Below are positions 7,455 through 59,177 of a DNA stretch of 64,000 bases, in pieces. Within the stretch, counting starts at the first letter, position 1. Every line of letters begins with the position of its first letter. A model generated the notes under the pieces. The model saw only the letters and a program-made list of their open reading frames with translations, was not told where the DNA came from and made no database searches. This DNA is from a virus. The stretch covers positions 1-64,000 of the IMG/VR virus record IMGVR_UViG_3300021171_000007. One strand, written 5' to 3'. The translations under genes were made by a program, and so were the position numbers.

Positions 7455-7456
7455 TA

Positions 7457-8148: not shown

Positions 8149-8172
8149 TTGCTACCTGCTACCTTTGATCGT

Positions 8173-8652: not shown

Positions 8653-8680
8653 CGTTCTCTCCTATCTCCATATATCTATA

Positions 8681-10135: not shown

Positions 10136-10156
10136 AACAGGCTCCTTAGAACTGGA

Positions 10157-16670: not shown

Positions 16671-17519
16671 TCAGTTGCTGTTGTTTTTGATTCCAACAAG
16701 CATCCTCTTTGGCGCCGCAAATTGGTTCATCCACGCAGATGGTCGCCCGACGAACGTGGAAATTTTGCGACCAGTACTGTCTTCGGATTTGATTTCCCGC
16801 AAGAAATCCTCGCCCATATCTGCTGGATGTAGACCGGCTTGTTCAGCATCGGAATAGATCGTATTCTCGATGTTGGCGAAGGCTGCATCATCTGCAATGA
16901 CCTTAAGGTCAATGTCCTTCCAGGCCTTGGAGTGCTCCTTGAGGCCATTGGCAAGACGACGACGATACGCAATCAAAGTCTCCCCATCAAGCGCACGCGG
17001 AGCCTTGCTGCCATGCATCAAATAGATGCGGTCGGCGCGAACCTGCGAATCAGCCATTAAAGCATAATCCGCATCCGTCATTTGACGAGGCAGTTTGGCT
17101 GCAACGTCAGCAACGCTCTTACGGAGCGTTTCAAGTTCGGCGGCATCTGCCTTGGCTTTGGCATCGGCCTTTTCTTTTTCCTCGGCATCCGCCTTGGCTT
17201 TGGCTTCCGCGTCCGCCTTGGCCTTGGCTTCTGCATCAGCTTTTTCGCGCTCGGCGGCGTCCATTTTGGCACGGGCGTCAGCCTTCTCCTTCTCTTCGGC
17301 GTCAGCTTTTGCCTTGTCAGCTTTCTCCTTTTCCTTCTCGTCCCAGGCGTCGCTGACGGTTTTCTTTACTGAATCCTTAATCGCATCGGCAAATGACGCA
17401 AAATAAGAATCAAATCGGGCCTTGTCAGCCTTTTCCTTTTCTTCTGCGTCAGCCTTTGCCTTCGCCTCATCTGCCTTGCGAGCGGCTTCCAAAGCCGCAG
17501 CTTTATCGTCGTCTGCCAT
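16671..17519 (-). CDS. Nested scaffold protein from internal start (probable)
   Basis: In-frame ATG at 17519 (MADDDKAAALEAARKADE) with AAAGGAA about 7 nt upstream inside the fusion gene. It would give a 282-aa protein consisting of the acidic/basic coiled coil plus C-terminal domain only. This repeats the lambda C/Nu3 arrangement, in which the scaffold is the C-terminal part of the protease gene translated separately. The start falls exactly where the protease-like region ends. Confidence 0.6.
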   Translation of the reverse strand: MADDDKAAALEAARKADEAKAKADAEEKEKADKARFDSYFASFADAIKDSVKKTVSDAWDEKEKEKADKAKADAEEKEKADARAKMDAAEREKADAEAKAKADAEAKAKADAEEKEKADAKAKADAAELETLRKSVADVAAKLPRQMTDADYALMADSQVRADRIYLMHGSKAPRALDGETLIAYRRRLANGLKEHSKAWKDIDLKVIADDAAFANIENTIYSDAEQAGLHPADMGEDFLREIKSEDSTGRKISTFVGRPSAWMNQFAAPKRMLVGIKNNSN

Positions 17520-18470
17520 AACAAGTTCCTTTTCTGCGGTTATCACGCCACTCGGCGGTAGTCCTTTATCCCAAACACCCACAAAGCAAATAGCTATGTG
17601 GTCTAGTAGTCTTGGCTTACCTTCAATAAGTAATTTGTTACCATTCCTCAGCTTAATTTTTTGGTCTTCACCCGTAAGAACCACGCAAGGAGAAGTGCTT
17701 AATTGATTTTCTGCCATAAGTTTGGCAGCATTTTCATCCCATACTTTTACAATTGCCCAAACTTCATCACCCTTAATATATGGAATAAATACAGAACCAA
17801 CATTTCTATCAACGTATTCTTTGGTATTTAATGTTGCCCTACCAGGATGCTCAAAGATAACAGGAAGACCATTACAACGCTCAAGAAATTCTTGATTCAA
17901 ATAAATCGACTTGTCGCGCCACACATGCTCTTTAATACCACTTCGATATGATAATCCAGTACCAGTTATTCTAATATCAAACAAAGTAAGATTGGCATAA
18001 CGCTGCGGTGAGGTTAACTCACCATCTTTCATAAGTTTAGCAATACCTAATTCATCAGCAAATAGTTTCTTTATAGTCGTTACTACCCCAGGATGTAATG
18101 GCTGGGGAGGCATTTCCAGTGGTGCCCACTTAAAGCCTGTATGTTCTTCATCTAATCTTGGAGGTACAAATTCGTCATCTACTTCTTGAATATAAGTAGT
18201 ATAATCAACTATGTATGTGGGTCTGTCTCCGTTTCCTTCATTAGTGGATATTCTACGAGAGAGTTCAAATAATTCTCCAGAAGGGTAGAATCCAATTTCT
18301 TCAGAACATTCTCTAATGGCTGCTTGGACTGATGTTTCACCGGCTTCCCGTTTTCCACCAGGTAGATCGTAAAATCCAGAATAATCTCCATATTCTGAAC
18401 GCTTAAGAAATAATGCCCTCTTGTCAGATGTGACAAAGAGGATGCCGGAAGCATTGATAGTCTCCGTCAT
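16671..18470 (-). CDS. Nudix hydrolase - DUF2213-type prohead protease - scaffold fusion
   Basis: 599 aa in three parts. Residues 1-150 are a Nudix domain with an intact box G39-x5-E45-x7-R53E54-x2-E57E58-x-G60. Residues about 155-315 match the DUF2213 phage protease region (YANLTLFDIRITGTGLSYR, VIFEHPGRATLNTKEYVDR). From residue 318 on there is an extremely Ala/Lys/Glu/Asp-rich coiled coil with AKADAEEKEK repeats, then a helical C-terminal domain, as in scaffolding cores. Position between portal and coat supports a protease/scaffold role. A Nudix domain joined to a head-maturation protein is unusual; it may hydrolyse a nucleotide during infection or be a structural relic. Confidence 0.8.
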   Translation of the reverse strand: MTETINASGILFVTSDKRALFLKRSEYGDYSGFYDLPGGKREAGETSVQAAIRECSEEIGFYPSGELFELSRRISTNEGNGDRPTYIVDYTTYIQEVDDEFVPPRLDEEHTGFKWAPLEMPPQPLHPGVVTTIKKLFADELGIAKLMKDGELTSPQRYANLTLFDIRITGTGLSYRSGIKEHVWRDKSIYLNQEFLERCNGLPVIFEHPGRATLNTKEYVDRNVGSVFIPYIKGDEVWAIVKVWDENAAKLMAENQLSTSPCVVLTGEDQKIKLRNGNKLLIEGKPRLLDHIAICFVGVWDKGLPPSGVITAEKELVMADDDKAAALEAARKADEAKAKADAEEKEKADKARFDSYFASFADAIKDSVKKTVSDAWDEKEKEKADKAKADAEEKEKADARAKMDAAEREKADAEAKAKADAEAKAKADAEEKEKADAKAKADAAELETLRKSVADVAAKLPRQMTDADYALMADSQVRADRIYLMHGSKAPRALDGETLIAYRRRLANGLKEHSKAWKDIDLKVIADDAAFANIENTIYSDAEQAGLHPADMGEDFLREIKSEDSTGRKISTFVGRPSAWMNQFAAPKRMLVGIKNNSN

Positions 18471-36207: not shown

Positions 36208-36270
36208 GACCGAAACTGGGGCGCCACAAAAGCTCTCCAGTCCTAGCGTAAGGCGCTAGCTGACGAGGTC
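36208..36270 (+). ncRNA. Hammerhead ribozyme 1 (type II)
   Basis: Stem II GACC (36208-36211)/GGTC (36267-36270); core GAAA (36212-36215); stem III starts A-C-T-G-G and closes C-C-A-G-T; cleavage nucleotide C36242; stem I CTAGCG (36243-36248)/CGCTAG (36254-36259), loop TAAGG; core CTGACGA (36260-36266). It begins right after the upstream stop codon and ends 19 nt before the next ATG. Predicted cut between 36242 and 36243. Confidence 0.9.
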
Positions 36271-36289
36271 AGTAACAGGAGTTGTACTA

Positions 36290-36706
36290 ATGAAACTAGA
36301 TCTTAATATTCACATAAACTCTTGGTTGCATCGTAATGACGATGTAATCGACCCTATTCTCATTCAATTGAAGGGGAATAGCGAACGGATGATTGTAGAT
36401 ACTTCTGAGTATATTTTTATCAGTTTCGAGTATCCTCTTTCACAAGGACTCGATCTGCCGTTTAATGGCAAGAAGCCTTGGAGATTGTGCGATCTTATTG
36501 ATGCGATCTGCCAGGGATATGTGAAGATTTACGACGAGGAAGATGAGACCAGAACGCTTCCTGCTCAGTCCCCATTAGATTCTGTTCTGGTTAATCGTCC
36601 TAAGACTGACGGCAAGCATGGCATTTGGGGACACGATCTCAATGACCTTTATATTGAAGGCGTACATAAAGAAGAAGGAATTTGGCATCTCGATATTGGA
36701 TCATAA
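36290..36706 (+). CDS. Hypothetical protein downstream of ribozyme 1
   Basis: 138 aa, acidic. Starts MKLDLNIHINSWLHRNDD, with SRL-like beta segments and a C-terminal DLYIEGVHKEEGIWHLDIG. RBS AGGAG within the leader left after ribozyme cleavage. No family recognised. Confidence 0.6.
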   Translation: MKLDLNIHINSWLHRNDDVIDPILIQLKGNSERMIVDTSEYIFISFEYPLSQGLDLPFNGKKPWRLCDLIDAICQGYVKIYDEEDETRTLPAQSPLDSVLVNRPKTDGKHGIWGHDLNDLYIEGVHKEEGIWHLDIGS

Positions 36707-36718
36707 TGGGAGGGAGCA

Positions 36719-36937
36719 ATGGGATATAGAATGAGGCGTTGTGACAAATGTAAGGATTTGATAAACGGAAATGATGTTGCATTCAATATACATTTTAAAT
36801 GGTGCGGACATAATACTGGACTAAACTATATGAGTGAGAAAGATCTTAAAGTGCTGGAAGCTAAATTGGCGCAACCAAGGAAAGATTCACCAGAAGCGGC
36901 TTGGAATAAAATGCACAATTGGTCAGGAAAACAGTAG
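36719..36937 (+). CDS. Small Cys-containing hypothetical protein
   Basis: 72 aa with CDKCKD at residues 8-13 and a later CGHN, a possible zinc site. Good RBS (GGGAGG). Its TAG stop shares its G with the first base of hammerhead 2. Confidence 0.6.
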   Translation: MGYRMRRCDKCKDLINGNDVAFNIHFKWCGHNTGLNYMSEKDLKVLEAKLAQPRKDSPEAAWNKMHNWSGKQ

Positions 36938-36997
36938 ACCGAAACTGGAGTGCCACAAGCTCTCCAGTCGCAGCGTTCCTCGCTGCCTGACGAGGTC
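36937..36997 (+). ncRNA. Hammerhead ribozyme 2 (type II)
   Basis: Stem II GACC (36937-36940)/GGTC (36994-36997); GAAA 36941-36944; stem III C-T-G-G.../C-C-A-G; cleavage C36969; stem I GCAGCG (36970-36975)/CGCTGC (36981-36986), loop TTCCT; CTGACGA 36987-36993. Predicted cut 36969/36970. The G of the upstream TAG is its first nucleotide. Confidence 0.9.
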
Positions 36998-37015
36998 AGT
37001 AATAGGAGAATGAAA

Positions 37016-37240
37016 ATGGCACGAGTAATTGTTCAAATTAAAACTGTCACATATTTAAATGGAGCTACTACTGAAATCGAAGATGAGTTACTTCGTGAAT
37101 TTACAGTAGTAACAAAAGGTCGTGGTGCAGTGAACATGCATTCAATGGCATCAATTATACAAGGTACGATCGAATCTGCTGAGGAAAGATTTAGGGTTGA
37201 AAAGACCAAAACATATTCAACAAATCGTAATATTGGTTAA
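37016..37240 (+). CDS. Small hypothetical protein between ribozymes 2 and 3
   Basis: 74 aa from ATG 37016 (AGGAG 7 nt upstream; an ATG two codons earlier is too close). Beta-rich N-terminus ARVIVQIKTVTYLNG, then a basic helix. The stop lies 3 nt before hammerhead 3. Confidence 0.55.
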   Translation: MARVIVQIKTVTYLNGATTEIEDELLREFTVVTKGRGAVNMHSMASIIQGTIESAEERFRVEKTKTYSTNRNIG

Positions 37241-37243
37241 TTA

Positions 37244-37302
37244 GACCGAAACTGGCAGGTGCGATCTGCCAGTCGCAGCGTTTCTCGCTGCCTGACGAGG
37301 TC
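37244..37302 (+). ncRNA. Hammerhead ribozyme 3 (type II)
   Basis: Stem II GACC (37244-37247)/GGTC (37299-37302); GAAA 37248-37251; stem III 8 bp A-C-T-G-G-C-A-G/C-T-G-C-C-A-G-T with loop GTGCGAT; cleavage C37274; stem I GCAGCG/CGCTGC (37275-37280/37286-37291), loop TTTCT; CTGACGA 37292-37298. Predicted cut 37274/37275. Confidence 0.92.
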
Positions 37303-37321
37303 AGTAACCAGGAGAACTAAA

Positions 37322-37603
37322 ATGAAACTTCCTCCAATAGAAGATGTTAAACTTACTGTCATAGGGCCGGATGATCCGCTTCCAGCGGGCTTCGAGCCCA
37401 TCACCATTGTCGTCAAGGACGTATCATGTCCAAAATGCGGTGCTGGAGAGATGCACCCGGATGGCAAGCATGTCCTAATTCGTGGATTCAAAGTCTGCGA
37501 TGCAAAAGGACATTGGTGGAGTCAATGTCTTGTCTGTGCCGGTGGGTACGACGCAGATTTGAACCCCGTTAAGGAGTTTGATCGCAACAAGGGATGGTTC
37601 TAA
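37322..37603 (+). CDS. Zinc-ribbon hypothetical protein
   Basis: 93 aa from ATG 37322 (CCAGGAGA upstream). N-terminal beta segment KLTVIGPDDPLPAGFEPITI, then a zinc ribbon CPKCGAGEMHPDGKH...CLVCAGGYD. Stop and next ATG share bases (TAATG). Confidence 0.6.
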   Translation: MKLPPIEDVKLTVIGPDDPLPAGFEPITIVVKDVSCPKCGAGEMHPDGKHVLIRGFKVCDAKGHWWSQCLVCAGGYDADLNPVKEFDRNKGWF

Positions 37604-37842
37604 TGCCAACCATAACAGTTGAACTCGAAGTAGCAATGGCTCAAGAGCTTGCCTCAGTAGCGCGTGGCAAAGCTAAGGGCATCGACTGGGTTCTGGAGAA
37701 TAAACCTCCAGTTCCCAAGAAGGCGTTGGAGCTTGACGAGCGAGCCAAAATTCTCGTTCAAGCTGCCACACTAATCGAGACTGCTCTTCACCAAAGAGCA
37801 CTCGGCAACGTCGTAAAGATGGGAGATAAAAATGTCCGATAA
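37603..37842 (+). CDS. Small hypothetical protein
   Basis: 79 aa, MPTITVELEVAMAQELASVA then two helices with conserved-looking LELDERAKILVQAATLIE. Translationally coupled to both neighbours. Unknown. Confidence 0.55.
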   Translation: MPTITVELEVAMAQELASVARGKAKGIDWVLENKPPVPKKALELDERAKILVQAATLIETALHQRALGNVVKMGDKNVR

Positions 37843-38131
37843 GGACCCATGGATCGTCTGCCCCGTGTGTGATGGGGAAGGCAAGACAGTCAATCCTAAT
37901 ATTGATGCGAACGGATTGACTCGCGAAGACTTCGATGAAGACCCAGACTTCAGAGAAGATTATATGAGCGGCATGTATGATATTACGTGCGCCGCTTGTT
38001 CTGGGAAGCGCGTTGTGAAACAAGCACGCATCACGGAATTAGAGCAGAATGCTGAAGATCGTCGGCTTGCTGCTCGTGAAAACGGCGACTATGAATCATA
38101 CAGTGTCGCAGGCGATTGGAGATACGGATGA
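37832..38131 (+). CDS. DnaJ-type zinc-finger hypothetical protein
   Basis: 99 aa. CPVCDGEGKTVNPNIDA and CAACSGKR form a CxxCxGxG-type zinc site around an acidic insert (EDFDEDPDFREDYMSG), followed by a charged helix. This family is frequent in phages and uncharacterised. Confidence 0.6.
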   Translation: MSDKDPWIVCPVCDGEGKTVNPNIDANGLTREDFDEDPDFREDYMSGMYDITCAACSGKRVVKQARITELEQNAEDRRLAARENGDYESYSVAGDWRYG

Positions 38132-38370
38132 AACTGGATAAACAACGCGAAAACCGAGCCAAGTACCCTTTCATTTGTGCTTGGGGCGCTAGACTTGGTT
38201 CTTTTCAATATTACATCGACGGTGAAGTTGCAAGAGCCATCGAAGATGGCGCTCCTGACCGTGCCATTTATAAGAGTGGCGACGGCAAGTGGCGCACCAT
38301 CGATGACTGCCAAAACGAAATGGCCAAAGAAGAATGTATAGCTTGGGTGGCCAAAAACTTTAAGAAATAG
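38128..38370 (+). CDS. Small hypothetical protein upstream of ribozyme 4
   Basis: 80 aa from ATG 38128 (overlaps previous stop, ATGA). Contains YPFICAWGARLGSFQYYID, CQNEMAKEECIAW. The G of its TAG stop is the first base of hammerhead 4. Confidence 0.55.
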   Translation: MKLDKQRENRAKYPFICAWGARLGSFQYYIDGEVARAIEDGAPDRAIYKSGDGKWRTIDDCQNEMAKEECIAWVAKNFKK

Positions 38371-38428
38371 ACCGAAACTGGTAGGTGCGATCTACCAGTC
38401 ACAGCGTAAGGCGCTGTCTGACGAGGTC
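38370..38428 (+). ncRNA. Hammerhead ribozyme 4 (type II)
   Basis: Stem II GACC (38370-38373)/GGTC (38425-38428); GAAA 38374-38377; stem III ACTGGTAG/CTACCAGT with loop GTGCGAT; cleavage C38400; stem I ACAGCG/CGCTGT (38401-38406/38412-38417), loop TAAGG; CTGACGA 38418-38424. Compared with copy 3, stem III has C-G replaced by T-A and stem I G-C replaced by A-T: compensatory changes. Confidence 0.92.
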
Positions 38429-38446
38429 AGTAATAGGAGTTGTATA

Positions 38447-38941
38447 ATGAAACAGGTTTCTGATTACTACAAGAAGTTCCTTCATAACGACGGAATTTCC
38501 AAAGAAATGTATAATGAAAACATCGAGCTTATTTACGATGTTGACGCAGAAATGTGGTATGCTTTTAATTACATATCACCAACGCATTACTACGAAGAAT
38601 TTGAAGATCTCATCGACGCGCTCGATTCAAATTCTGTTCTTTGGTGGCACGACTTGTCCGGCGACAATGATAAAGTTACGGACAGGAAGCAGATATTGGT
38701 AATTAAATTCCTCGATGACGAGGAAGACGAATGGACCATGTTCTACCATCACGGTATAATGGACGGCAAAGATGTAACAACATCTTGGGCTGCTCCATCT
38801 TCAGGAGAATTTCCTACTCCTGAATGCATTGTACGTCAGAAAGTATCTGTGGTGCAATGTGCTGTTGATGCCGCACAATTTATTTTTGATCAACCACATA
38901 TAAATAAGCCACGTAATCCATCACTTCGTTACGTCAAATAG
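38447..38941 (+). CDS. Hypothetical protein between ribozymes 4 and 5
   Basis: 164 aa, acidic and aromatic-rich (VDAEMWYAFNYISPTHYYEE), beta-rich middle (ILVIKFLDDEEDEWTMFYHH). No family recognised. RBS AGGAG. Its TAG overlaps hammerhead 5 by one base. Confidence 0.6.
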   Translation: MKQVSDYYKKFLHNDGISKEMYNENIELIYDVDAEMWYAFNYISPTHYYEEFEDLIDALDSNSVLWWHDLSGDNDKVTDRKQILVIKFLDDEEDEWTMFYHHGIMDGKDVTTSWAAPSSGEFPTPECIVRQKVSVVQCAVDAAQFIFDQPHINKPRNPSLRYVK

Positions 38942-39007
38942 ATCGAAACTATGGGGCGCCACAGGAGCGTTCCATAGTCGCAGCGTAACTCGCTGCCTGA
39001 CGAGATC
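38941..39007 (+). ncRNA. Hammerhead ribozyme 5 (type II, covariant stem II)
   Basis: Stem II GATC (38941-38944)/GATC (39004-39007): relative to the other copies both strands have changed so that pairing is kept. GAAA 38945-38948; stem III A-C-T-A-T-G-G/C-C-A-T-A-G-T; cleavage C38979; stem I GCAGCG/CGCTGC (38980-38985/38991-38996), loop TAACT; CTGACGA 38997-39003. Confidence 0.92.
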
Positions 39008-39025
39008 AGAAAAGGAGTAGGTAGC

Positions 39026-39235
39026 ATGACGAAAGTAGATCCAAAATCTGCCTTTGAAGGGGACACCATTACTCCCGTTGAGAAGCCTAAGTCAAGGGCG
39101 CAGAAGGTTGCTGAGTACAGAGTAGCTCATCGAGCAGAGTACGAGCGAACTTGCCATGATGCACAATGCACTTGCACGCCAACTCGCGCGCAGATGTTGA
39201 TTATGGATAACTACCAAAGCCCACCAATCGACTAA
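39026..39235 (+). CDS. Small hypothetical protein
   Basis: 69 aa, with a basic helix (KSRAQKVAEYRVAHRAEYER) and CHDAQCTCTP, a possible metal site. AAAAGGAG RBS after ribozyme 5. Followed by an intrinsic terminator. Confidence 0.6.
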   Translation: MTKVDPKSAFEGDTITPVEKPKSRAQKVAEYRVAHRAEYERTCHDAQCTCTPTRAQMLIMDNYQSPPID

Positions 39236-39258
39236 TTATAAACCTTACCATTGAACTT

Positions 39259-39285
39259 TGGAGCGCAGCAATGCGCTCCACTTTT
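39259..39285 (+). terminator. Intrinsic terminator within the ribozyme operon
   Basis: TGGAGCGCA-gcaa-TGCGCTCCA then CTTTT. Perfect 9-bp stem, tetraloop, short U tract. Probably partial, since genes in the same direction continue without an obvious new promoter. Confidence 0.75.
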
Positions 39286-39316
39286 AGGCAATTTTGCCAC
39301 TACCAGGATAAGTAAA

Positions 39317-39448
39317 ATGTCAAGAATAAAATCAGCTTTACGAGGTGTTGTCATAGTACCGGCTTGGGTCGTTATGCTGGCAACAGCCAGTTTTATCGTC
39401 GGAACTGGTATCTGGACTACACTGCTGATGAGCCGCTGTTCGATCTAA
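39317..39448 (+). CDS. Small membrane protein
   Basis: 43 aa, MSRIKSALRGVVIVPAWVVM then a second hydrophobic half: one membrane helix of about 25 residues after a basic N-terminus. Unknown role. Confidence 0.5.
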   Translation: MSRIKSALRGVVIVPAWVVMLATASFIVGTGIWTTLLMSRCSI

Positions 39449-39472
39449 CCAACCTAAACCAGGAGAATAAAA

Positions 39473-39790
39473 ATGACACCTCAAGAGAGCAGGAAGAATT
39501 GGCTCGATAAGCAGCCAGTGCGCGAGAATCTTACTACTGAGCACGGATGGCCGATGCGAAATGATCATATTCTGCATCTGTTCGGTTTGCCATCAAATCA
39601 TCCTATTCCGCCGGATTATGAAGATATCAAACTAATCGGTAATGTTTGGGTTCGGATTTATCCACGCGGACAGGCGCACATTGGTAGACGTGTTGTGGCA
39701 GAATGTCCAAAATGTGAAAGATTGGTTTGTGCTGGCCATTTAATGCAACATATGAAGGTACATAATGATCGAGGAGCAAGCAAAATTTGA
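39473..39790 (+). CDS. C2H2-like zinc-finger hypothetical protein
   Basis: 105 aa. C-terminal CPKCERLVCAGHLMQHMKVH is a C2H2-type finger; the rest contains HLFGLPSNHPIPPDYEDIKL and a small beta domain. May bind DNA or RNA. Overlaps the next gene by 26 nt. Confidence 0.6.
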   Translation: MTPQESRKNWLDKQPVRENLTTEHGWPMRNDHILHLFGLPSNHPIPPDYEDIKLIGNVWVRIYPRGQAHIGRRVVAECPKCERLVCAGHLMQHMKVHNDRGASKI

Positions 39791-40001
39791 GAGATGGAAG
39801 TCCAGAGTAGACGTTTACCTGGAGCAGATGGTAAAGAAACTAAGTGGAGATTTTAAATATGATTATCTCCACGACTTCCAAAATAAGGTTCCACCCAGCA
39901 TAACAGCTACTCGCGTTGTAAAACGCCAGTACAGAAATGGAGTAGAAAATGGTAGCAACAGCATACGGAGTCAAGGCAAATGGCAAAAAACTCCTCGATG
40001 A
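39765..40001 (+). CDS. Small hypothetical phage protein
   Basis: 78 aa, ERWKSRVDVYLEQMVKKLSG, then DYLHDFQNKVPPSITATRVV: a pattern (helix, DY/F...P...A) common in small phage proteins of unknown function. It overlaps the preceding gene by 26 nt and the following one by 53 nt. Confidence 0.5.
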   Translation: MIEEQAKFERWKSRVDVYLEQMVKKLSGDFKYDYLHDFQNKVPPSITATRVVKRQYRNGVENGSNSIRSQGKWQKTPR

Positions 40002-40197
40002 ATATCGAGGAGACCGCATATATGGAGATTGTTTCATCATTCTTAAGGATGGAAAGGAAACATATGAGGTTGTTCTTTCCACTATCGGTGATATGTGCAA
40101 TTGCAAAGCTGGCGAACATGGTCATCAATGCAAACATGTTAAGATGGCACTAGAATATCATCACAAAATTAACGAAGCGATTGAGGCAGTCAAATAG
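39949..40197 (+). CDS. SWIM-type zinc-finger protein
   Basis: 82 aa. ILKDGKETYEVVLSTIGDMC then CNCKAGEHGHQCKH, the CxC...CxH motif of SWIM fingers. A paralogue is encoded at 46951-47151. Probably DNA or protein binding. TAG stop shares its G with hammerhead 6. Confidence 0.65.
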   Translation: MVATAYGVKANGKKLLDEYRGDRIYGDCFIILKDGKETYEVVLSTIGDMCNCKAGEHGHQCKHVKMALEYHHKINEAIEAVK

Positions 40198-40260
40198 ACC
40201 GAAACTTGGGGCGCCACAAGGCGTTCCAAGTCGTGCTGTAAGGCAGCACCTGACGAGGTC
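40197..40260 (+). ncRNA. Hammerhead ribozyme 6 (type II)
   Basis: Stem II GACC (40197-40200)/GGTC (40257-40260); GAAA 40201-40204; stem III A-C-T-T-G-G/C-C-A-A-G-T; cleavage C40232; stem I GTGCTG/CAGCAC (40233-40238/40244-40249), loop TAAGG; CTGACGA 40250-40256. Stem I differs from other copies on both strands with pairing kept. Confidence 0.92.
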
Positions 40261-40284: not shown

Positions 40285-40419
40285 ATGGGTGACCCAGAAG
40301 AGCATAAAGACGAAGAGTTGAGCCTTGAGAAAGAGACTCAAAAAGAGCCCAAAGAAGAGGCAAAAGAGCCAGTAAAAGAAGGTGATCCTCAACCAGAGGA
40401 AGATCCCAAAGTAGCGTAA
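40285..40419 (+). CDS. Small acidic Lys/Glu-rich protein
   Basis: 44 aa (MGDPEEHKDEELSLEKETQK and on), almost only Glu, Lys, Pro, Asp: certainly disordered. Very good RBS AAGGAGG. Last gene of the ribozyme operon, followed by a terminator. Confidence 0.55.
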   Translation: MGDPEEHKDEELSLEKETQKEPKEEAKEPVKEGDPQPEEDPKVA

Positions 40420-40435
40420 ATATAACGTCAACTTT

Positions 40436-40468
40436 CCGCTCCCATTTGGGAGGGTGGGAGCGGTTTTT
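40436..40468 (+). terminator. Intrinsic terminator ending the ribozyme operon
   Basis: CCGCTCCCA-10 nt-TGGGAGCGG followed by TTTTT. 9-bp GC-rich stem. Confidence 0.88.
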
Positions 40469-41019: not shown

Positions 41020-41053
41020 CCGCCCACAGTCCCACAACTGTGGGCGGTCTTTT
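41020..41053 (+). terminator. Intrinsic terminator
   Basis: CCGCCCACAG-8 nt-CTGTGGGCGG then TCTTTT. Perfect 10-bp stem. Confidence 0.85.
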
Positions 41054-41088
41054 AGGCAATTTAGCCAACAACCAGGATTTAAAATGTC

Positions 41089-51869: not shown

Positions 51870-53015
51870 ATGTTTCTGGATAAGATCTATAAAAAGGACG
51901 TTTCTGGCAATATAAGAGTTTGGCAAGCCGAAGTGGGGGAAGGTGAATGGGAAGGTTGCTGGAGATCGCATCACGGTACTTTAAATGGGCAAATCCAAAC
52001 AACACAATGGACAGAAGTAGAATTAAAATCACAATCATCTATAATGGAGCAAGCTATATTTTATGCCAATGCAGAAATGAAAAAGAAATTGAAAATAGAT
52101 TACAAACTCAATATCGAAGATATAAATGAGTCTCGAATGAGTTTTATTAAACCGATGTTAGCTCATACATATGTAGGATGGGAGCGCCCATGTTTTGCTC
52201 AACCTAAGCTAGATGGCGTTCGATGCTTGGCAAATGTAGATGGGCTTTGGACGCGCACCAATAAGCAGATCATTTCTACACCTCATATCGAGGGAGAATT
52301 GAAGGCATTTTTTGAAGATCATCCAGAAATTATTTTAGATGGAGAATTATATAATCACGACCTGCATGATAACTTCAATAAGATAATTTCTTTGGCTCGA
52401 AAGACTAAGCCTGAGTTTGCGGACTTAGAAGAGTCAGCAGAGCTTATAGAATATTGGATATATGATATGTTTAATCTAGAAAATTCTGACTCTATATTTG
52501 AAGAGAGATGGGATTATATACATGACAATTTATTTAATCTAGATCATAATATAAATATGATAAAAGCAGTTCCAACTCGGTTTGTTACAACGGAAGATGA
52601 GTTGGATATATACAATCAAGAACTCTTATTGGACGGATATGAAGGACAAATTGTGCGCCACAATGTTGCATATCAACAGAAGCGCACAGATAAACTTCTC
52701 AAACGAAAAGAGTTCGTTGACGAAGAATATGAACTAAAATCAATTGAAGAAGGAGCAGGGCAATGGAGCGGCTATGCAAAAATAGCTGTTTGCCAATTAC
52801 CAGATGGCAGAGAATTTAGAGCAGGTATATCTGGAACACAAGAATTCACATTACAACTTTTGGAGGAAAGAGAGAAGTATCATTCTGTTACGGTGAAATA
52901 TCAAGCATTAACTCCAGATGGAATTCCTCGCTTTCCAATAGCTATAAAGTTTTGGGAAGAAATGTTTGATAGACTAGACGAAGTTCTCAAACCGAAACGT
53001 GATCTTTTCGCATAG
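51870..53015 (+). CDS. ATP-dependent DNA ligase with WGR-like N-terminus and C-terminal DLFA
   Basis: 381 aa. Motif I is AQPKLDGVRC with the AMP-accepting K113; motif III-like EIILDGELYNH; motif IV YEGQIVRHN; motif V DKLLKRKEFVDEEYELKSI; then an OB domain (AGQWSGYAKIAVCQLPDGRE). Residues 1-85 (KIYKKDVSGNIRVWQAEVGE ...QAIFYANAEMKKKLK) resemble a WGR domain, as in several phage ligases. The C-terminus KPKRDLFA is the terminal DLFA peptide. Seals nicks during phage replication; recruitment to the clamp through DLFA would fit. Confidence 0.88.
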   Translation: MFLDKIYKKDVSGNIRVWQAEVGEGEWEGCWRSHHGTLNGQIQTTQWTEVELKSQSSIMEQAIFYANAEMKKKLKIDYKLNIEDINESRMSFIKPMLAHTYVGWERPCFAQPKLDGVRCLANVDGLWTRTNKQIISTPHIEGELKAFFEDHPEIILDGELYNHDLHDNFNKIISLARKTKPEFADLEESAELIEYWIYDMFNLENSDSIFEERWDYIHDNLFNLDHNINMIKAVPTRFVTTEDELDIYNQELLLDGYEGQIVRHNVAYQQKRTDKLLKRKEFVDEEYELKSIEEGAGQWSGYAKIAVCQLPDGREFRAGISGTQEFTLQLLEEREKYHSVTVKYQALTPDGIPRFPIAIKFWEEMFDRLDEVLKPKRDLFA

Positions 53016-53025
53016 GAGTTTGGTA

Positions 53026-53841
53026 ATGAACGAAGTGCAAACAACGACCCAAGGTCAACTAGCTTTAGATGATGAACTCTTATCGCTAGGAGGGATGGGA
53101 ACTGAGAATGTAAAGTCCAAAGACGTTCTTATTCCACGCCTAGTCATTCTGCAAGCACTGTCTCCTCAATTGAACAAAAAGAAAGCAGAATACATTGAGG
53201 GTGCAGAGATCGGTGATTTCTGCAATGTGGCAACTGGTGACATTTACAAGGAATCAGTTCTCGTTGTTCCTTGCCATTTTACTACGGATTATATTGAATG
53301 GACAAAGAACCGCGGTGGCTTAGCAGCAAACCACGGAGACGATGCTTCAATTTTGAAGCACACTGTCAAGAACGACAAGAACGAGAACGTATTGACGAAT
53401 GGTAACATTGTCCAAGAAACGGCACAATGGTATTGCCTTCTGCAAGATGGCGCCTCATGGTCAAGAATTTTCTTTCCGCTTAAGGCAACCAACCTAAAGC
53501 ACTCAAGAAAATGGCTTACATTATGCAGAGCAGAAGTGGTACAACTTCCGAATAACGAACTTTGGAAGCCGCCCCTTTTTTGGCGATCTTGGAAGTTGGA
53601 TATTATCAGTGATGGAAACGACCAAGGTGATTGGTACACATTTAGGCCAGTTAAGGGCGAATTAATAATGGATCTTGATCCAAGTAAGCAACTCATTAGA
53701 CTGTGCAAGTCATTTTACGAAGATATTCGTACCAACGTTGTTCGTCCTGATATTGAAACAACTCAAGACGAAACTGGTCCTATTATTGAAGGGAGAGCAA
53801 ATCCAAAAACAGATCCAACCGAAAAGGATATACCATTCTAA
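53026..53841 (+). CDS. Single-stranded-DNA-binding-type protein with DIPF C-terminus
   Basis: 271 aa from ATG 53026 (AGGAG). The body (IPRLVILQALSPQLNKKKAE...GDIYKESVLVVPCHFTTDYI) is a beta-rich fold found in phage proteins located with ligase/helicase genes. The last residues PTEKDIPF reproduce the acidic DDDIPF tip of bacterial SSB, which recruits replication and repair proteins. The OB-fold itself is not clearly recognisable by eye. Function as the phage SSB is therefore a strong but indirect inference. Confidence 0.65.
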   Translation: MNEVQTTTQGQLALDDELLSLGGMGTENVKSKDVLIPRLVILQALSPQLNKKKAEYIEGAEIGDFCNVATGDIYKESVLVVPCHFTTDYIEWTKNRGGLAANHGDDASILKHTVKNDKNENVLTNGNIVQETAQWYCLLQDGASWSRIFFPLKATNLKHSRKWLTLCRAEVVQLPNNELWKPPLFWRSWKLDIISDGNDQGDWYTFRPVKGELIMDLDPSKQLIRLCKSFYEDIRTNVVRPDIETTQDETGPIIEGRANPKTDPTEKDIPF

Positions 53842-53911
53842 GGAGGTGCTGGTGCGAGATATTGGGGTTACGCCTATATATCTGAGGGTTCGATTCCCTC
53901 TACCTCTTCCA
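53842..53911 (+). tRNA. tRNA-like relic (acceptor and T arm only)
   Basis: The 3' part is clearly tRNA-like: T stem GAGGG/CCCTC with loop TTCGATT, acceptor strand TACCTCT, then T and CCA. The first 7 nt GGAGGTG pair with the acceptor 3' strand (two G-U pairs). Only 35 nt lie between acceptor and T arm, several fewer than in a normal tRNA. They form AGATAT/ATATCT plus an internal GG/CC pair instead of proper D and anticodon arms. No anticodon can be assigned. Probably a degenerate tRNA. Confidence 0.4.
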
Positions 53912-53927
53912 ATAGTGAGGAGATGAA

Positions 53928-54374
53928 ATGAGCCTTATTGAACACGATGTAGGTGAACACGCAACCCGAGCAATTGAAGAGAGACTTCTTGGTGTAGAAA
54001 GACCAAGATTATTGAGAACACTTTCGACCAAACCAGAACCGGTGGTTGAGGAGCCACCGGCACCGGAACCTGAATCTATGCCAACACCTGTTAAAATAGA
54101 CCATACATTAATTCCGATCGACGCTCTTGAAGAAGTGTCACGAGCACTTATGTATGGTAAAGAGAAACATGGCGCTTGGGGATGGATAGAACATCCAAAG
54201 AGCTATACTGAGCTTCTCGCGAAAGCGCAGCGCCACATTTTTGAGTTTCAACGCGGTGTGACAATTGATCCAGCAACTCAATTGTCACATATAGCATGTG
54301 CGATCTGTGATCTCATGTTTCTGCAATCCAATATTATAAAGGGTCGTGGAACAGATGACAGGTTCAAAGATTAA
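53928..54374 (+). CDS. dATP/dGTP diphosphohydrolase-like protein (DUF5664/MazG-like)
   Basis: 148 aa. LEEVSRALMYGKEKHGAWGW, then YTELLAKAQRHIFEFQRGVT and ATQLSHIACAICDLMFLQ: the L-x-YG-x-x-K-x-x-x-x-W ... RH ... D-x-x-T/S-x-L-x-H pattern of phage DUF5664 nucleotide diphosphohydrolases. N-terminal 60 residues are a Pro/Glu-rich linker. Likely adjusts the dNTP pool, in line with ThyX and the MazG-like protein at 28250. No PurZ homologue in this window, so no sign of a Z genome. Confidence 0.7.
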   Translation: MSLIEHDVGEHATRAIEERLLGVERPRLLRTLSTKPEPVVEEPPAPEPESMPTPVKIDHTLIPIDALEEVSRALMYGKEKHGAWGWIEHPKSYTELLAKAQRHIFEFQRGVTIDPATQLSHIACAICDLMFLQSNIIKGRGTDDRFKD

Positions 54375-54651
54375 GGAGCATGGGAAGGCTAGGTTCGGTA
54401 GAAGTCCGATTGAAGTCCCTTCAATGAGCAACGCCTAGCATAGCAATGGACTGATCGCGCCTAATCGGAATGGAGGTAGACATGTCCTGAAGGGCATACT
54501 GAGGACCGGGGACATACGAGGTCCATGAGAGATTGAGAACACCGTGGAAATAATCCGTAGTAGCGAAAGCTAGTGTAACTCAAACCAGGCCGTTTTGCCG
54601 CTATACCAATGCGGAGTGCTGTAAACAGCAATTAGGCCAAATGAGGGAGAT
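54375..54651 (+). ncRNA. 277-nt structured non-coding RNA (unclassified)
   Basis: No gene. First domain: GCTAGG/CCTAGC (about 54388/54434) enclosing TCGG/CCGA and TTGAAG/CTTCAA hairpins. Middle: ATGTCC/GGACAT and GGACC/GGTCC hairpins. Last domain: GGCC...GGCC enclosing CCGC-9 nt-GCGG and TGCTG-taaa-CAGCA. Dense nested pairing between two coding genes indicates an RNA, but it matches no consensus I recognise. Confidence 0.5.
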
Positions 54652-55002
54652 ATGGGAATAAGATTAACATATCTCCCTCTCACTAATATAGAAAAGCTAG
54701 AACGATGGCTTAAATTGGAGGTTGTAGTGGACTATAAAGAATTTGATTGCATAGATTGTAATTGCCATGTATATACATGGGCAGATGATGACAGAGAACG
54801 ATGTGCAGTTTGCACATGGATTAATCAATTGCCTGATCTAACGCAAAACGAAATTGATGAGATACGTGTTATGACTGCAACTCCTATACTTCCCAAATAT
54901 AGAGATGATAATTTTCCTGAAAGAAATTGCGACTATTGTGGCAATTTATATAAAGGCCCAGCAGTTTATTGCAGCCATGCATGTGCAATGAAGGACGCTT
55001 AA
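54652..55002 (+). CDS. Zinc-finger hypothetical protein
   Basis: 116 aa with three Cys groups: CIDCNC (about 32-37), CAVC (about 51-54) and CDYCGNLYKGPAVYCSHAC at the end, an FCS-like zinc knuckle. Begins just after the structured RNA region with GAGGGAG as RBS. Unknown role. Confidence 0.55.
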   Translation: MGIRLTYLPLTNIEKLERWLKLEVVVDYKEFDCIDCNCHVYTWADDDRERCAVCTWINQLPDLTQNEIDEIRVMTATPILPKYRDDNFPERNCDYCGNLYKGPAVYCSHACAMKDA

Positions 55003-55003
55003 C

Positions 55004-55558
55004 ATGAACGACGATATTCGTGATCTTTTCGGATTTGTTGCGCCATCTCAAGAGCAGTTGACGTCCATATCGAAATGGGCGAGTAAGGCTTTAGAGCTAC
55101 AAGCTGAGATTGAGCAAGTTGAGGCGCACCTAAAAGAATTGAATAGAGAATTAGCCCAAATCGAAGAAGTAGATTTGCCCAGAGCAATGATGTCTGCTGG
55201 CTCGGAAGAATTTACTATGACAGGAGGCGGCAAGATTTCCATAGACGATGTTATTCAGGGCAGTCTAGCTAAAGGTGAAGAAAAGCGGGAATATGCGATC
55301 CAGTGGGTGGCAGAAAATGACGGCCAAGAAATTATAAAAAGACATTTCGAGATAGATTACACCAGAGGCCAGCATTCCTATGCGATGGCATTACGTAAAC
55401 TGCTCGAAGAAAATCAGGTACATTTTGACGAGTTTGAGAGCATTCACACTAGCACCTTCAAAGCATTTCTGCGTGAGAAGTTAAGAAAGAATATCATGCC
55501 ACCCTTCGATAAGATGGGTTTTCGCTTTTTTAAAAAAGCTATTATCAAACCAAAGTAA
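55004..55558 (+). CDS. Conserved phage replication-module protein with N-terminal RDLF
   Basis: 184 aa. Helical coiled coil (residues 20-60), then EVDLPRAMMSAGSEEFTMTG and a C-terminal domain ending RKNIMPPFDKMGFRFFKKAI. This helix-plus-'LP...M...G...F' protein is common beside ssDNA-binding genes in phages, with no assigned activity. The N-terminus MNDDIRDLFGFV contains the DLF peptide, again linking it to the replication set. Confidence 0.6.
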   Translation: MNDDIRDLFGFVAPSQEQLTSISKWASKALELQAEIEQVEAHLKELNRELAQIEEVDLPRAMMSAGSEEFTMTGGGKISIDDVIQGSLAKGEEKREYAIQWVAENDGQEIIKRHFEIDYTRGQHSYAMALRKLLEENQVHFDEFESIHTSTFKAFLREKLRKNIMPPFDKMGFRFFKKAIIKPK

Positions 55559-55562
55559 GAAA

Positions 55563-55652
55563 ATGGCAGGACACGATTGGTTTGAGGCGTTAACGTATTG
55601 TACGATTATCGTTTGGTTTTTATACGATGTATGGAAGCGGCGTAATGACTGA
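55563..55652 (+). CDS. Very small membrane protein
   Basis: 29 aa, AGHDWFEALTYCTIIVWFLY then DVWKRRND: one hydrophobic helix with basic end. Overlaps the next start by 8 nt. Confidence 0.4.
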   Translation: MAGHDWFEALTYCTIIVWFLYDVWKRRND

Positions 55653-56526
55653 TATCCATATTATTGGAGCAGGTATGTCTGGCTTGTTGGCAGCTAATAT
55701 GCTGCGGCGCCACAGAGTAACTGTGTTTGAAAAACAAGAGCAACTTCCAAATAACCATCATGCAGTCTTACGTTTTAGAACTCCAGAAATAGGCAATATT
55801 TTGGGTATTCCTTTTAAAAAAGTTAATATGATTAAAACTTACGAGCCATATATGAATGTGGTAGCAGATAGTTTGTCATATTCCAGGAAATGCACTGGTA
55901 AATATCTATCAGATAGATCCATTATTACTGGAACTATTCAATCTGAGCGTTACATTGCGCCTCAAAATCTAGTAGAACAAATGGCAGAAAATGTTAATGT
56001 CTGCTATGGCACAGGATTTGATCCATTAAAAAACAAAGCAAACATACCAGTTAAAGCTATTTCTACGTTGCCAATGCCTGTGCTAATGGCATTATTAGAA
56101 TACGAACATGATATTAATTTTGATAGTATCCCAGGTTGGGTCTTCACAGGCAGAATATTGGATTGCGATGCCTATGTCTCAATTTTATACCCAGGTCCAC
56201 AAGTATATAGTCGCGCCACTATTACGGGAGATCAAATTATTGTGGAATTCCCCAACCTTGGAGAAATTCCTGATATTGTTGATCTTGCTAATGTTTATAA
56301 CTCCCTTGGTTTATATGATTGTGTGGTACTTGATGCCGAATTTAAGAGACAGCCATATTTCAAAATAACAGAGATAGATGAAGCAGAACGCAAGGCGTTT
56401 ATGCGTTGGGCAACTGTCACATATGGTATCTATTCTCTGGGGCGCTACGCAACCTGGAGACCAAAACTGCTACTTGACGACCTAATCCACGATGTCCGCA
56501 AAATAGAAGGATGGATCTGCAAATGA
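55645..56526 (+). CDS. FAD/NAD(P)-dependent oxidoreductase-like protein
   Basis: 293 aa from ATG 55645. DIHIIGAGMSGLLAANML (residues 3-20) is the Rossmann GxGxxG motif, followed by VTVFEKQ, the strand ending in the ribose-binding acid. The remainder (FDSIPGWVFTGRILDCDAYV, ...) resembles flavoprotein monooxygenase/amine-oxidase-like phage proteins. It lies two genes before the FAD-using ThyX, but no direct link in the reaction is known. Confidence 0.65.
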   Translation: MTDIHIIGAGMSGLLAANMLRRHRVTVFEKQEQLPNNHHAVLRFRTPEIGNILGIPFKKVNMIKTYEPYMNVVADSLSYSRKCTGKYLSDRSIITGTIQSERYIAPQNLVEQMAENVNVCYGTGFDPLKNKANIPVKAISTLPMPVLMALLEYEHDINFDSIPGWVFTGRILDCDAYVSILYPGPQVYSRATITGDQIIVEFPNLGEIPDIVDLANVYNSLGLYDCVVLDAEFKRQPYFKITEIDEAERKAFMRWATVTYGIYSLGRYATWRPKLLLDDLIHDVRKIEGWICK

Positions 56527-56729
56527 CATTCGAGCAACTTCTCAAAAAGGCTGCTGAAGAAGCCAACGAACATGAGCTAGTAACTATTACTATTTCAGAA
56601 ATAAGGAGCTATCTTGACAGCATAGAAAATCAATTAGAGGAACTCGATGGTGCTTTAGATTGGGCGCAAGGTGCAGTCCATTCTGGAGAAAGTAAAGAAG
56701 CTTGGGTTCTTATTAAGGTAGTATCATAG
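56523..56729 (+). CDS. Small acidic hypothetical protein
   Basis: 68 aa from ATG 56523 (ATGA junction). Helical, acidic (SYLDSIENQLEELDGALDWA). Unknown. Confidence 0.5.
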   Translation: MTFEQLLKKAAEEANEHELVTITISEIRSYLDSIENQLEELDGALDWAQGAVHSGESKEAWVLIKVVS

Positions 56730-56739
56730 GAGGATGCGA

Positions 56740-57015
56740 ATGAAAAAGCTACCTCCTTTAGGTGATCAAGCTATACAACCGGAATACAAAGAAAAGATGA
56801 TAGCATTAGCTCAAGCTATTGATGAACTATTTAATGGAGAAGCCAAAGGTAAAGATAAAAAAGTTGGTTTTGTATTAATGGTATTTCCATTTGGTAACGA
56901 AGATGGGCGTTGCAATTATATCAGCAACGGTGCTGATAGAAAAGATATTGTTGTTATGATGAAAGAACAGATTAAACGATTTGAAGGCCAAAAAGAAGAA
57001 GTTGGGAGAGCATAA
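56740..57015 (+). CDS. Small hypothetical protein
   Basis: 91 aa from ATG 56740 (AGGAGG 6 nt upstream; ATG at 56734 too close). KVGFVLMVFPFGNEDGRCNY then DIVVMMKEQIKRFE: a small alpha/beta pattern common in phages. Unknown. Confidence 0.55.
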   Translation: MKKLPPLGDQAIQPEYKEKMIALAQAIDELFNGEAKGKDKKVGFVLMVFPFGNEDGRCNYISNGADRKDIVVMMKEQIKRFEGQKEEVGRA

Positions 57016-57749
57016 TGAAAGTAACGCTTATTGACGGAACAGGATTTGGTTCTCCAAATCCAAGTCGCTATGCTGCAAATATGATTGCATACACTAGATC
57101 AACAAGACTCAATATGTCTCCAGGATTACTTGCTGAAATCCAAGCAAAAGAAGATTTTGAAGTTCTTAAAGAAGTGCAATTGGCAGCAGGTACAATTCCA
57201 TCTAGCTGGGAGTTCGTTCAATTCACATTTGTTATAGAGAAAGTGACACGAGCATTTACCCACCAATTGGTGCGCACCAGACACGCCTCATATGCTCAAC
57301 AAGCTATGCGTATTGTTGAGATGACAGATTTTGAATACGCTAGAGGTCCGTCTGTTGGAGAACAAGGATTATACGATGATACTATGGCAATGATTGCCAA
57401 AAATTATAAGATATTAATTGATTCAGGTGCAACGACTGAGGATGCGAGAGGCATATTGCCAACGAATATTCTCACCAATATTTGTATGCATATCAACATG
57501 CGTAACTTTGTTAATTTGACAAGGAAACGCGTCAGTAGACGTGTGCAAAATGAGTACAGAAATGTACTTGATGCAGCAATAATTGAAGTCGAGAAAACAT
57601 ATCCATGGTTCTATCTTTTCTATAAAAATGATGCATTTAAGGCCAGAAAAGATCTGCAAGATATGATCTATGAAAATAAGCACCTGCTACCTGAAGAAAA
57701 GGTAGACATGGTTAAGAAATTGGATATTATAGGAGGGCAAGAGTTATGA
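57015..57749 (+). CDS. thyX: Flavin-dependent thymidylate synthase ThyX
   Basis: 244 aa. FTHQLVRTRHASYAQQAMRI (residues 81-100) is the ThyX signature region; the usual RHR is RTR and the following Ser (S92) is kept, whereas the second conserved Ser is Ala. C-terminal NFVNLTRKRVSRRVQNEYRN corresponds to the second conserved block. Makes dTMP from dUMP using CH2H4folate and FAD. Part of a nucleotide-supply cluster. Confidence 0.85.
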   Translation: MKVTLIDGTGFGSPNPSRYAANMIAYTRSTRLNMSPGLLAEIQAKEDFEVLKEVQLAAGTIPSSWEFVQFTFVIEKVTRAFTHQLVRTRHASYAQQAMRIVEMTDFEYARGPSVGEQGLYDDTMAMIAKNYKILIDSGATTEDARGILPTNILTNICMHINMRNFVNLTRKRVSRRVQNEYRNVLDAAIIEVEKTYPWFYLFYKNDAFKARKDLQDMIYENKHLLPEEKVDMVKKLDIIGGQEL

Positions 57750-57925
57750 AATTAAATTGGGCAGAAGAACTTGCCCTAGATGTATCAATGTGTTATCAGC
57801 AAGGAAAGGTGGCGCGACAAAAGAATGAAAGCAGGTTCGACAATCCATATATGCAAAAGAAATTCACATACGAAAAAGCATGGGATCAAGGTTGGGTAGA
57901 TGAGGACGGTCTTATAAATCAATGA
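57746..57925 (+). CDS. RMF/CrpP-like small protein
   Basis: 59 aa. CYQQGKVARQKNESRFDNPY then YEKAWDQGWVDEDG: the A/G-rich helix, N-P and W-x-x-G-W pattern of ribosome modulation factor-like and CrpP-like small proteins. Function in the phage unknown. Overlaps both neighbours by 4 nt. Confidence 0.5.
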   Translation: MKLNWAEELALDVSMCYQQGKVARQKNESRFDNPYMQKKFTYEKAWDQGWVDEDGLINQ

Positions 57926-58368
57926 TAGTTGTTGTTGATCTCGATCATACTGTGTCTGACGCGTTTTGGCGCGACAGTATGATAGGTGTCAATCCTTGGG
58001 ATGAATATTACGAAAACGCTAAGTACGATAAGCCATTCAAGAACGTAGCTAATTTAATCAATTCTCTTTCTGCTATGAACTACGAGATTATAGCATTTAC
58101 TGGAAGACCAGAAAAATTTAGAACTCTAACAGTCAGTTGGTTAGTTCGTAATAGAATTGACATAGATACTATCTTGATGCGCCCAGACGAGGATTATACC
58201 AAAAATAGCGAGTTGAAACTTAGATTAATCAAAGAACATTTTAAGGATAGATTTTATCAAATACATTTTATTATTGACGATAATGAGGAATCAGTATTAG
58301 AATTTTACAAATTGGGGATACCTACACTTCAAATAAGAAACGTAAGACCAAAGGATCTCTTCGCGTGA
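57922..58368 (+). CDS. HAD-family phosphatase with C-terminal DLFA
   Basis: 148 aa. Motif I VVDLDHTVSD (D-x-D-x-T; D6/D8), motif II FTGRPEKFR (T/S then G-R-P), lysine NSELKLRLI and motif IV FIIDDNEESV: a cap-less HAD phosphatase similar to the phosphatase half of T4 Pnkp and to small nucleotidases. The kinase half is absent. C-terminus RPKDLFA carries the DLFA peptide. Substrate could be a nucleotide or a DNA/RNA 3' phosphate. Confidence 0.7.
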   Translation: MIVVVDLDHTVSDAFWRDSMIGVNPWDEYYENAKYDKPFKNVANLINSLSAMNYEIIAFTGRPEKFRTLTVSWLVRNRIDIDTILMRPDEDYTKNSELKLRLIKEHFKDRFYQIHFIIDDNEESVLEFYKLGIPTLQIRNVRPKDLFA

Positions 58369-58658
58369 CAGAACTATCAGAAACAGAACAAGCCATAGGA
58401 CTTATGAATGAATTAATAAAGACTATGAAGGAGCGTGAAGCAGAGTATGGTAGTAATGAACACAAAACTGCCCAGATATTGATGATATTATTTCCAGAAG
58501 GAATACATGTCAACTCTTTTGAAGCAGCAGTCAGAATTAAATTCTTGATCTATATAATAGATAAACTCAGTAGATATTCAAAAAAAGGGAATAAAGATAG
58601 TTTGATAGATTTGGCAGGATATGCGTTGCGTTTGGCAGTATTCGATCCAAAGGAGTAG
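58365..58658 (+). CDS. Small helical phage protein (DUF6378-like)
   Basis: 97 aa. MKEREAEYGSNEHKTAQILM, then KFLIYIIDKLSRYSKKG and DSLIDLAGYALRLAV: the R-x-x-x-YG ... K-x-x-R ... D-x-x-x-D-x-A-G-Y-A pattern of DUF6378-type MazG-like small proteins. Probably all-alpha nucleotide-related. Overlaps the HAD gene by 4 nt. Confidence 0.55.
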   Translation: MTELSETEQAIGLMNELIKTMKEREAEYGSNEHKTAQILMILFPEGIHVNSFEAAVRIKFLIYIIDKLSRYSKKGNKDSLIDLAGYALRLAVFDPKE

Positions 58659-58664
58659 GTAGCA

Positions 58665-59177
58665 ATGGGTAATGAGCCATATACTGAACAAGAATACAAA
58701 AGGGCATGGAAAGGAAATAACAGGTCAGTTCGTGATCTAATAGAAGAATGGCCTAAGAGCAGATGGCCAGCAGTAATTAAAGATGAATTAATTAATCAAT
58801 CAAAAATAGCAAACCCTAATGTTGGATTTACTCAATACATTGCCAATGGGTTAAATGGAGTAACTAATCAAACTAATTCTAAACCAATATTTACTCAACC
58901 AACAACAATTCCAAAAGACATAAAGGAATTGAGTATATTGAATTGGGCTAGATGGATATATTGGCATCAAGATGAATGGAAATATTCAGGCTGTAAATAT
59001 CCAGAAAAGAGCCGTGAATGGGTAACTGCAAAAGACAGAGATTCTGGGAGGGATATTGATAATCAAAAACTGTTACGCGAGTATGAATGGACAGAATTAT
59101 CTGATAACCAACTTTGGCTTGTTAGAGGAACTATCAACGCATTCATAATCTATCTAAGATCAATAGGTTTTAAATGA
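58665..59177 (+). CDS. Hypothetical protein
   Basis: 170 aa, Trp-rich (NWARWIYWHQDEWKYSGCKY), a helical N-terminus and a basic middle. Overlaps the exonuclease start by 4 nt, so it is co-translated with the polymerase genes. No family recognised. Confidence 0.55.
   Translation: MGNEPYTEQEYKRAWKGNNRSVRDLIEEWPKSRWPAVIKDELINQSKIANPNVGFTQYIANGLNGVTNQTNSKPIFTQPTTIPKDIKELSILNWARWIYWHQDEWKYSGCKYPEKSREWVTAKDRDSGRDIDNQKLLREYEWTELSDNQLWLVRGTINAFIIYLRSIGFK

Follow-up and report, generated by a model that had tools for sequence, protein, structure and literature searches.

Here we describe an array of six type II hammerhead ribozymes in the IMG/VR virus record IMGVR_UViG_3300021171_000007, the first 64,000 bases of which (out of 79,611) form the window that we analysed and to which positions refer unless a locus is named. 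Judging from the sequence, the six elements (Table 1) very probably work in cis, within the sense RNA of an operon of small accessory genes in an uncultured tailed phage, segmenting its transcript into blocks of genes. Their assignment to the type II hammerheads, which the initial annotation of this DNA had proposed, is supported by the complete core, the predicted fold, covariation and conservation in relatives; furthermore, anatomy and conservation lend good support to the prediction that the sense strand is cleaved in the interval from each upstream stop codon to the ribosome-binding site that follows.

Each element is ordered as stem II (GACC or GATC), GAAA, the stem III hairpin, U-C, the stem I hairpin, CUGACGA and the returning strand of stem II (GGUC or GAUC). 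The core is present in all six copies, comprising CUGANGA, GAAA and a cleavage base H17 that follows a U16.1 paired to A15.1; indeed, the coordinates, core nucleotides and cleavage positions of the initial annotation proved exact base for base. Folded alone with RNAfold, every copy adopts the three-stem hammerhead as its minimum-energy structure (-23 to -33 kcal/mol), with stem II as the open end. Independent support for the six elements is the strict structural scan, which finds six in the window and 0 when the sequence of the same loci is Markov-shuffled (3.85 Mb). The family covariance model likewise returns exactly six matches in the 79,611-base record and no further type II hammerhead there, all on the plus strand at 70–78 bits, scores that are not independent, as the model was built from 22 relatives with the window copies among them.

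The conservation of the array extends to its relatives. Ten of 11 viral contigs, fetched via the neighbouring 337-amino-acid (aa) protein and not via the ribozymes, and including near-duplicates (e.g., L140 and L141) that make for fewer independent lineages, carry two to seven hammerheads in the same operon, all in the operon sense; the eleventh contig is truncated just upstream and starts too near for the region to be seen. In an alignment of 22 elements, 308 of 308 stem cells pair (100%, as against 82.6% in shuffled controls), 53 changes are two-sided (12.4 when shuffled) and affect all three helices, and the covariation score reaches 0.547, compared with 0.186 for shuffled alignments and at most 0.131 for slid partners. 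Among 39 distinct elements selected by their core alone, with pairing not required, 575 of 585 pairs form, whereas shuffled controls give 430 on average and 453 at most. Within the window itself, the stem changes that the initial annotation had listed are all real, namely GACC/GGTC to GATC/GATC, ACTGGCAG to ACTGGTAG with its partner, and the stem I variants. An explanation of the elements as non-catalytic repeats, such as terminators or protein-binding hairpins merely resembling hammerheads, would draw on the presence of GC-rich hairpins between genes and on the recurrence of stem III sequences in a second, terminator-like element (Table 1). Yet the unpaired core is unchanged across the relatives while the stems vary in a paired manner, and no T-run is seen in the sequence after either hairpin of the window ribozymes, leaving this explanation highly improbable.

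The position of the elements between genes is equally regular, as every copy sits between a stop codon and the ribosome-binding site of the next gene. Copy 1 starts directly 3' of the TAA of a 130-aa gene, and in copies 2, 4, 5 and 6 the first G doubles as the third base of the upstream TAG, in agreement with the four such overlaps first noted. The 15–25 nucleotides (nt) originally given as the distance to the next ATG measure 19, 12 or 18 (two in-frame ATGs), 19, 18, 18 and 24 nt for copies 1 to 6. The overlap with the stop codon invites a reading in which translation, Mg2+ or a ligand controls cleavage, with the ribozymes serving as switches in place of constant cutters: a ribosome terminating there would sit over stem II and GAAA of copies 2, 4, 5 and 6, and the same overlap, with the G of TAG opening stem II, is found in 147 of 382 distinct elements. 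However, the base 5' of stem II is an A in all 39 clade elements and in 571 of 574 matches across all loci, such that the TAG overlap can follow from compact packing. With no conserved ligand-like domain seen in the loops, regulated cleavage seems unlikely to us.

A tertiary contact between loop I and the stem II region takes the form of a pseudoknot in about 40% of hammerheads and is not required. The loop I–tail pseudoknot of Perreault et al. (2011) is probably not a common feature of the window array, since by inspection loop I of copies 2 and 3 (UUCCU and UUUCU) could pair with a downstream AGGAG and that of copies 1, 4, 5 and 6 could not. The tail 3' of stem II reads AGUAA or AGAAA in 27 of the 39 clade elements, and it may, together with the conserved A before stem II, form a tertiary contact distinct from the published pseudoknot. 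At loci retrieved by pattern scans (e.g., L034, L026 and L094), the tail is often UCAGAAA or CAGUAA, placed directly after stem II or three bases further on (GGTC-catcagaaaa, GATC-gtcagaaa); such a tail is a possible partner of loop I.

A search with the Rfam hammerhead II model had been suggested as a check, and none of the window copies matches RF02276 (Hammerhead_II) at the gathering score or at E<=5; copy 4 alone gives a weak match of the wrong permutation (20 bits to type III), while the same library finds the hammerheads of another viral contig, L048, at 38–59 bits. RF02276 and the window copies have the type II permutation and the catalytic core in common. The model, however, describes a stem II of 2 base pairs and a stem I loop complementary to the 3' tail, as seen when it is aligned with an L048 element, whereas the window copies have a stem II of 4 base pairs, a 5-nt loop I and no consistent tail pairing. 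Rfam thus misses the window copies because its type II model represents the pseudoknotted form with the shorter stem II. A common subtype escapes the model and, therefore, arrays of this kind are under-counted.

Beyond the relatives of the window phage, exact-pattern scans of viral contigs with three stem II sequences returned 96, at least 120 and at least 120 stretches. The loci fetched hold 391 distinct type II hammerheads, as many as eight of them in a single locus (L034, L213 and L291), counts that are no census, as the loci were chosen largely by pattern. By sequence criteria, viral contigs commonly carry such arrays, the largest having eight copies. Their placement resembles that in the window: a Shine-Dalgarno-like site and start codon lie within 60 nt downstream of 305 of 379 elements, as against 402 of 3000 random places (13%), and 230 of 377 elements start at a stop codon or at most 10 nt after it. 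In contig L048, which is unrelated to the window phage, ten ribozymes occupy ~5.5 kb (5300–10821, minus strand), six of them type II hammerheads and four, interspersed, of the Twister-P5 class (RF02684), all on one strand of one operon between stop codons and ribosome-binding sites. Twister-P5 has an unrelated ribozyme fold and takes the same slot as the hammerheads, which argues that cutting is what is selected; others have applied the same reasoning to ribozyme neighbourhoods (PMC10085705). A cultured phage belongs here as well, as the record of Streptomyces phage Wentworth (L417, MH019216.1) contains four unannotated type II hammerheads at 52835–59057 (minus strand; 52835–52886, 56672–56724, 57967–58040 and 58993–59057), located between genes, in one operon direction and each followed by a start codon; within the stretch searched, none of them scores as high as the Rfam gathering cut-off. 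Phages Rooney, Gibson, Yara, Dryad and phiRKBJ001 share the short sequence match seen in Wentworth. In matched phages of Aminobacter, Arthrobacter and Caulobacter, no hammerhead was found in the stretches scanned.

How the window array would work can be proposed from this anatomy. Folding during transcription, with stem II open and stems I and III closed by loops, each ribozyme would cut its own RNA after C17, between the upstream stop codon and the ribosome-binding site of the next gene. It is likely that one transcript runs across all six copies; it would be cut into up to seven pieces, among them pieces of ~727, 305, 1126, 579 and 1253 nt and a last one ending at the hairpin 40436–40463. 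The initial description of ribozymes separating the genes of an operon thus applies to blocks of genes and not to each gene, as the pieces hold 2, 1, 4, 1, 5 and 1 genes. On the basis of known hammerhead chemistry and the positions of the elements, an internal piece would carry a 5'-OH at its start, on a stem I hairpin that precedes the ribosome-binding site, and a 2',3'-cyclic phosphate on the stem III hairpin that forms its 3' end. From general knowledge, such ends should slow decay that proceeds from free 5'-monophosphates or single-stranded 3' ends. The most likely use would be to make each block independent of those beside it, with a separate leader, separate ends and a decay rate of its own, so that a block could come or go while the others stayed undisturbed. 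In RiboJ-type synthetic insulators, a hammerhead just 5' of the ribosome-binding site removes upstream RNA and leaves a hairpin leader; these are engineered, whereas a natural insulator use of phage hammerheads is what we infer by analogy.

The predicted ends would also suit another fate, in which an RtcB-type ligase seals the pieces between two ribozymes into circular mRNAs; 5'-OH and 2',3'-cyclic phosphate ends are established to fit this enzyme. Circular RNAs bounded by hammerheads are known in eukaryotic retrozymes (PMC7761336). However, RtcB was not found in the window phage or three relatives by the same search that found it in 9 of 14 control genomes, although a host RtcB could take its place, and Perreault et al. 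sought circular products of clustered hammerheads and found none (PMC3088659). Circularization is, in our judgement, very improbable.

Several points weigh against segmentation of the transcript by cleavage. N7 is a C and the known loop I–tail pseudoknot is apparently lacking, both of which bear on the cleavage rate at cellular Mg2+, and 4 of 18 consensus hammerheads tested by Perreault et al. did not cleave (PMC3088659). The hairpin element at 39251–39299 may end some transcripts before copy 6. Related phages whose neighbouring gene is 82% or 71% identical carry no such ribozymes, which are therefore dispensable in the wider lineage. Finally, folding predicts no consistent gain in the accessibility of the ribosome-binding site once the RNA is cut; better translation thus has no folding support, and exposure of the site by cleavage was rejected as a candidate effect.

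Comparison of relatives points to a further possible property of the array, its exchange of gene cassettes. Two of them, G002 and G001, are 97% identical around the array and differ by a gene plus ribozyme (L136 4434–4700) and by a 1.66-kb insert, the ends of both lying inside ribozymes. At the edge of the gene-plus-ribozyme deletion or insertion sits a mosaic ribozyme of G001 (L137 2944–3007), the 5' part of which is like one G002 copy and the 3' part like the other (L136 4370–4433 and 4678–4736). Moreover, copies 1 and 2 of the window enclose two extra genes at a place that in G002 is occupied by one ribozyme. On sequence comparison, recombination through the ribozymes appears to have happened in these phages. 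The cassette ends, the mosaic and the extra genes could even be taken to mean that the selected role of the ribozymes is mainly that of homologous joints for cassette exchange between phages, with cleavage secondary. Clean insertions or deletions that end in a ribozyme, however, amount to 8 of 115 across related loci (7%), in no clear excess over the 5.5% of same-strand gene junctions that hold ribozymes, and recombination is therefore not claimed as their general purpose. Pure homology joints, furthermore, would have no need of covarying stems, of a preserved core, of orientation in the sense direction or of being replaced by Twister-P5, and we doubt that joining is the main role. Ribozymes as general hot spots of gene insertion and deletion were set aside, their enrichment being evident over bases and not clearly over gene junctions.

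The proposed segmentation of phage transcripts by hammerheads has a precedent, contrary to the initial annotation, which was aware of no operon described as segmented this way. Perreault et al. (2011; PMC3088659) reported natural type II hammerheads of which multiple copies flank single genes or short blocks in prophages, and proposed that these process the long transcripts of phages into mRNAs the length of an operon or a gene; in their work, a triple array from A. tumefaciens DNA (ardA, their Figure 3) cleaved both in vitro and in E. coli. Neighbouring hammerheads were likewise mentioned by De la Pena et al. (2017), who noted some that flank small open reading frames and called their role an open question (PMC6155905), as the function of phage and bacterial hammerheads has been described more generally (PMC6155905, PMC10085705). 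Like the clusters of Perreault et al., which include type II copies, the window array consists of several hammerheads in one orientation, on the plus strand, between same-strand genes of a phage transcript. It differs in having six copies where a triple was tested in E. coli, in lying in a virus contig and not a prophage, in being of one subtype and in being known from sequence alone. Judged against the open-licence literature, it is a larger, well conserved new example of the same kind; what is added here are arrays of up to eight copies, an operon with mixed Twister-P5 and hammerhead ribozymes, cassette ends within ribozymes and a cultured phage with four copies. Together, the conserved and covarying six-copy array, the mixed-class arrays and cultured Wentworth make the segmentation idea directly testable. 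Perhaps many tailed phages carry plug-in accessory operons in which interchangeable ribozymes (hammerhead subtypes and Twister-P5) flank gene blocks, cut the mRNA, provide standard ends and a clean leader, and serve as crossover points, a generalization that we offer tentatively and hold to be rather less probable than not. If true, ribozyme arrays would be a general device of gene expression and evolvability in phages.

Table 1. Elements of the window operon. The first number of each predicted cut is C17, the last base 5' of the cut; scores are those of the family covariance model.
Feature	Position	Strand	Predicted cut	Next ATG	Score (bits)
Type II hammerhead, copy 1	36208–36270	+	36242/36243	36290	78.0
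Segment 1, between ribozymes 1 and 2: two small genes (138, 72 aa)	36290–36937	+			
Type II hammerhead, copy 2	36937–36997	+	36969/36970	37010 or 37016	72.0
Segment 2: one gene (74 aa)	37016–37240	+			
Type II hammerhead, copy 3	37244–37302	+	37274/37275	37322	73.9
Segment 3: four genes (93, 82, 99, 80 aa)	37322–38370	+			
Type II hammerhead, copy 4	38370–38428	+	38400/38401	38447	73.9
Segment 4: one gene (164 aa)	38447–38941	+			
Type II hammerhead, copy 5 (stem II GATC/GATC)	38941–39007	+	38979/38980	39026	72.9
Segment 5: five small genes (69, 43, 105, 78, 82 aa)	39026–40197	+			
Second intergenic element, between copies 5 and 6: TTGAACT, GC hairpin (~39268–39287), CTTTTAGGCAATTTTGCCA; terminator-like	39251–39299	+			
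Type II hammerhead, copy 6	40197–40260	+	40232/40233	40285	70.5
Last gene, 3' of ribozyme 6: 44-aa acidic protein (ATG 40285)	40285–40419	+			
Intrinsic terminator-like hairpin, strong: 12 base pairs, TTTTT tail	40436–40463	+			

The phage that carries the array is a tailed double-stranded DNA phage, in which the large and small terminase subunits, portal, DNA polymerase III alpha, primase and an ATP-dependent ligase were recognised. Its terminase and polymerase are less than 60% identical to those of any named phage; a DNA similarity search of window positions 34–42 kb and a search with the neighbouring 337-aa protein, both against named phages, gave no match. Within the operon, the 82-aa product of the last gene of segment 5 has a weak match to a SWIM zinc finger. 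The hairpin at 40436–40463, with 97% identity over 31 bases in relative G002, is likely the end of the operon. On its opposite strand, G002 also carries an extra type II hammerhead (L136 2404–2481, minus strand; G002:C1:36971–37048) with a UA cleavage site and a score of 49 bits, which precedes an opposite-strand gene. Elsewhere in the window, a gene adjoining the portal gene, among structural genes (16674–18470, minus strand), encodes a 599-aa protein with an N-terminal NUDIX domain that belongs to phrog_6216 (function unknown).

The second intergenic element recurs at ~41020–41067 (plus strand) of the window and at several other loci (L138 5429 and 8963; L143 2773 and 3783; L145 3018; L152 5805, 6168 and 6745; L405 3097), where its layout is a GC hairpin, YTTTTAGGCAATTTTGCC(A), ~10 nt, a ribosome-binding site and an ATG. 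Stem III sequences of the hammerheads recur in its hairpins, and in L152 three such elements are arrayed in an operon without hammerheads. It may be a terminator plus operator, or an undescribed processing element.

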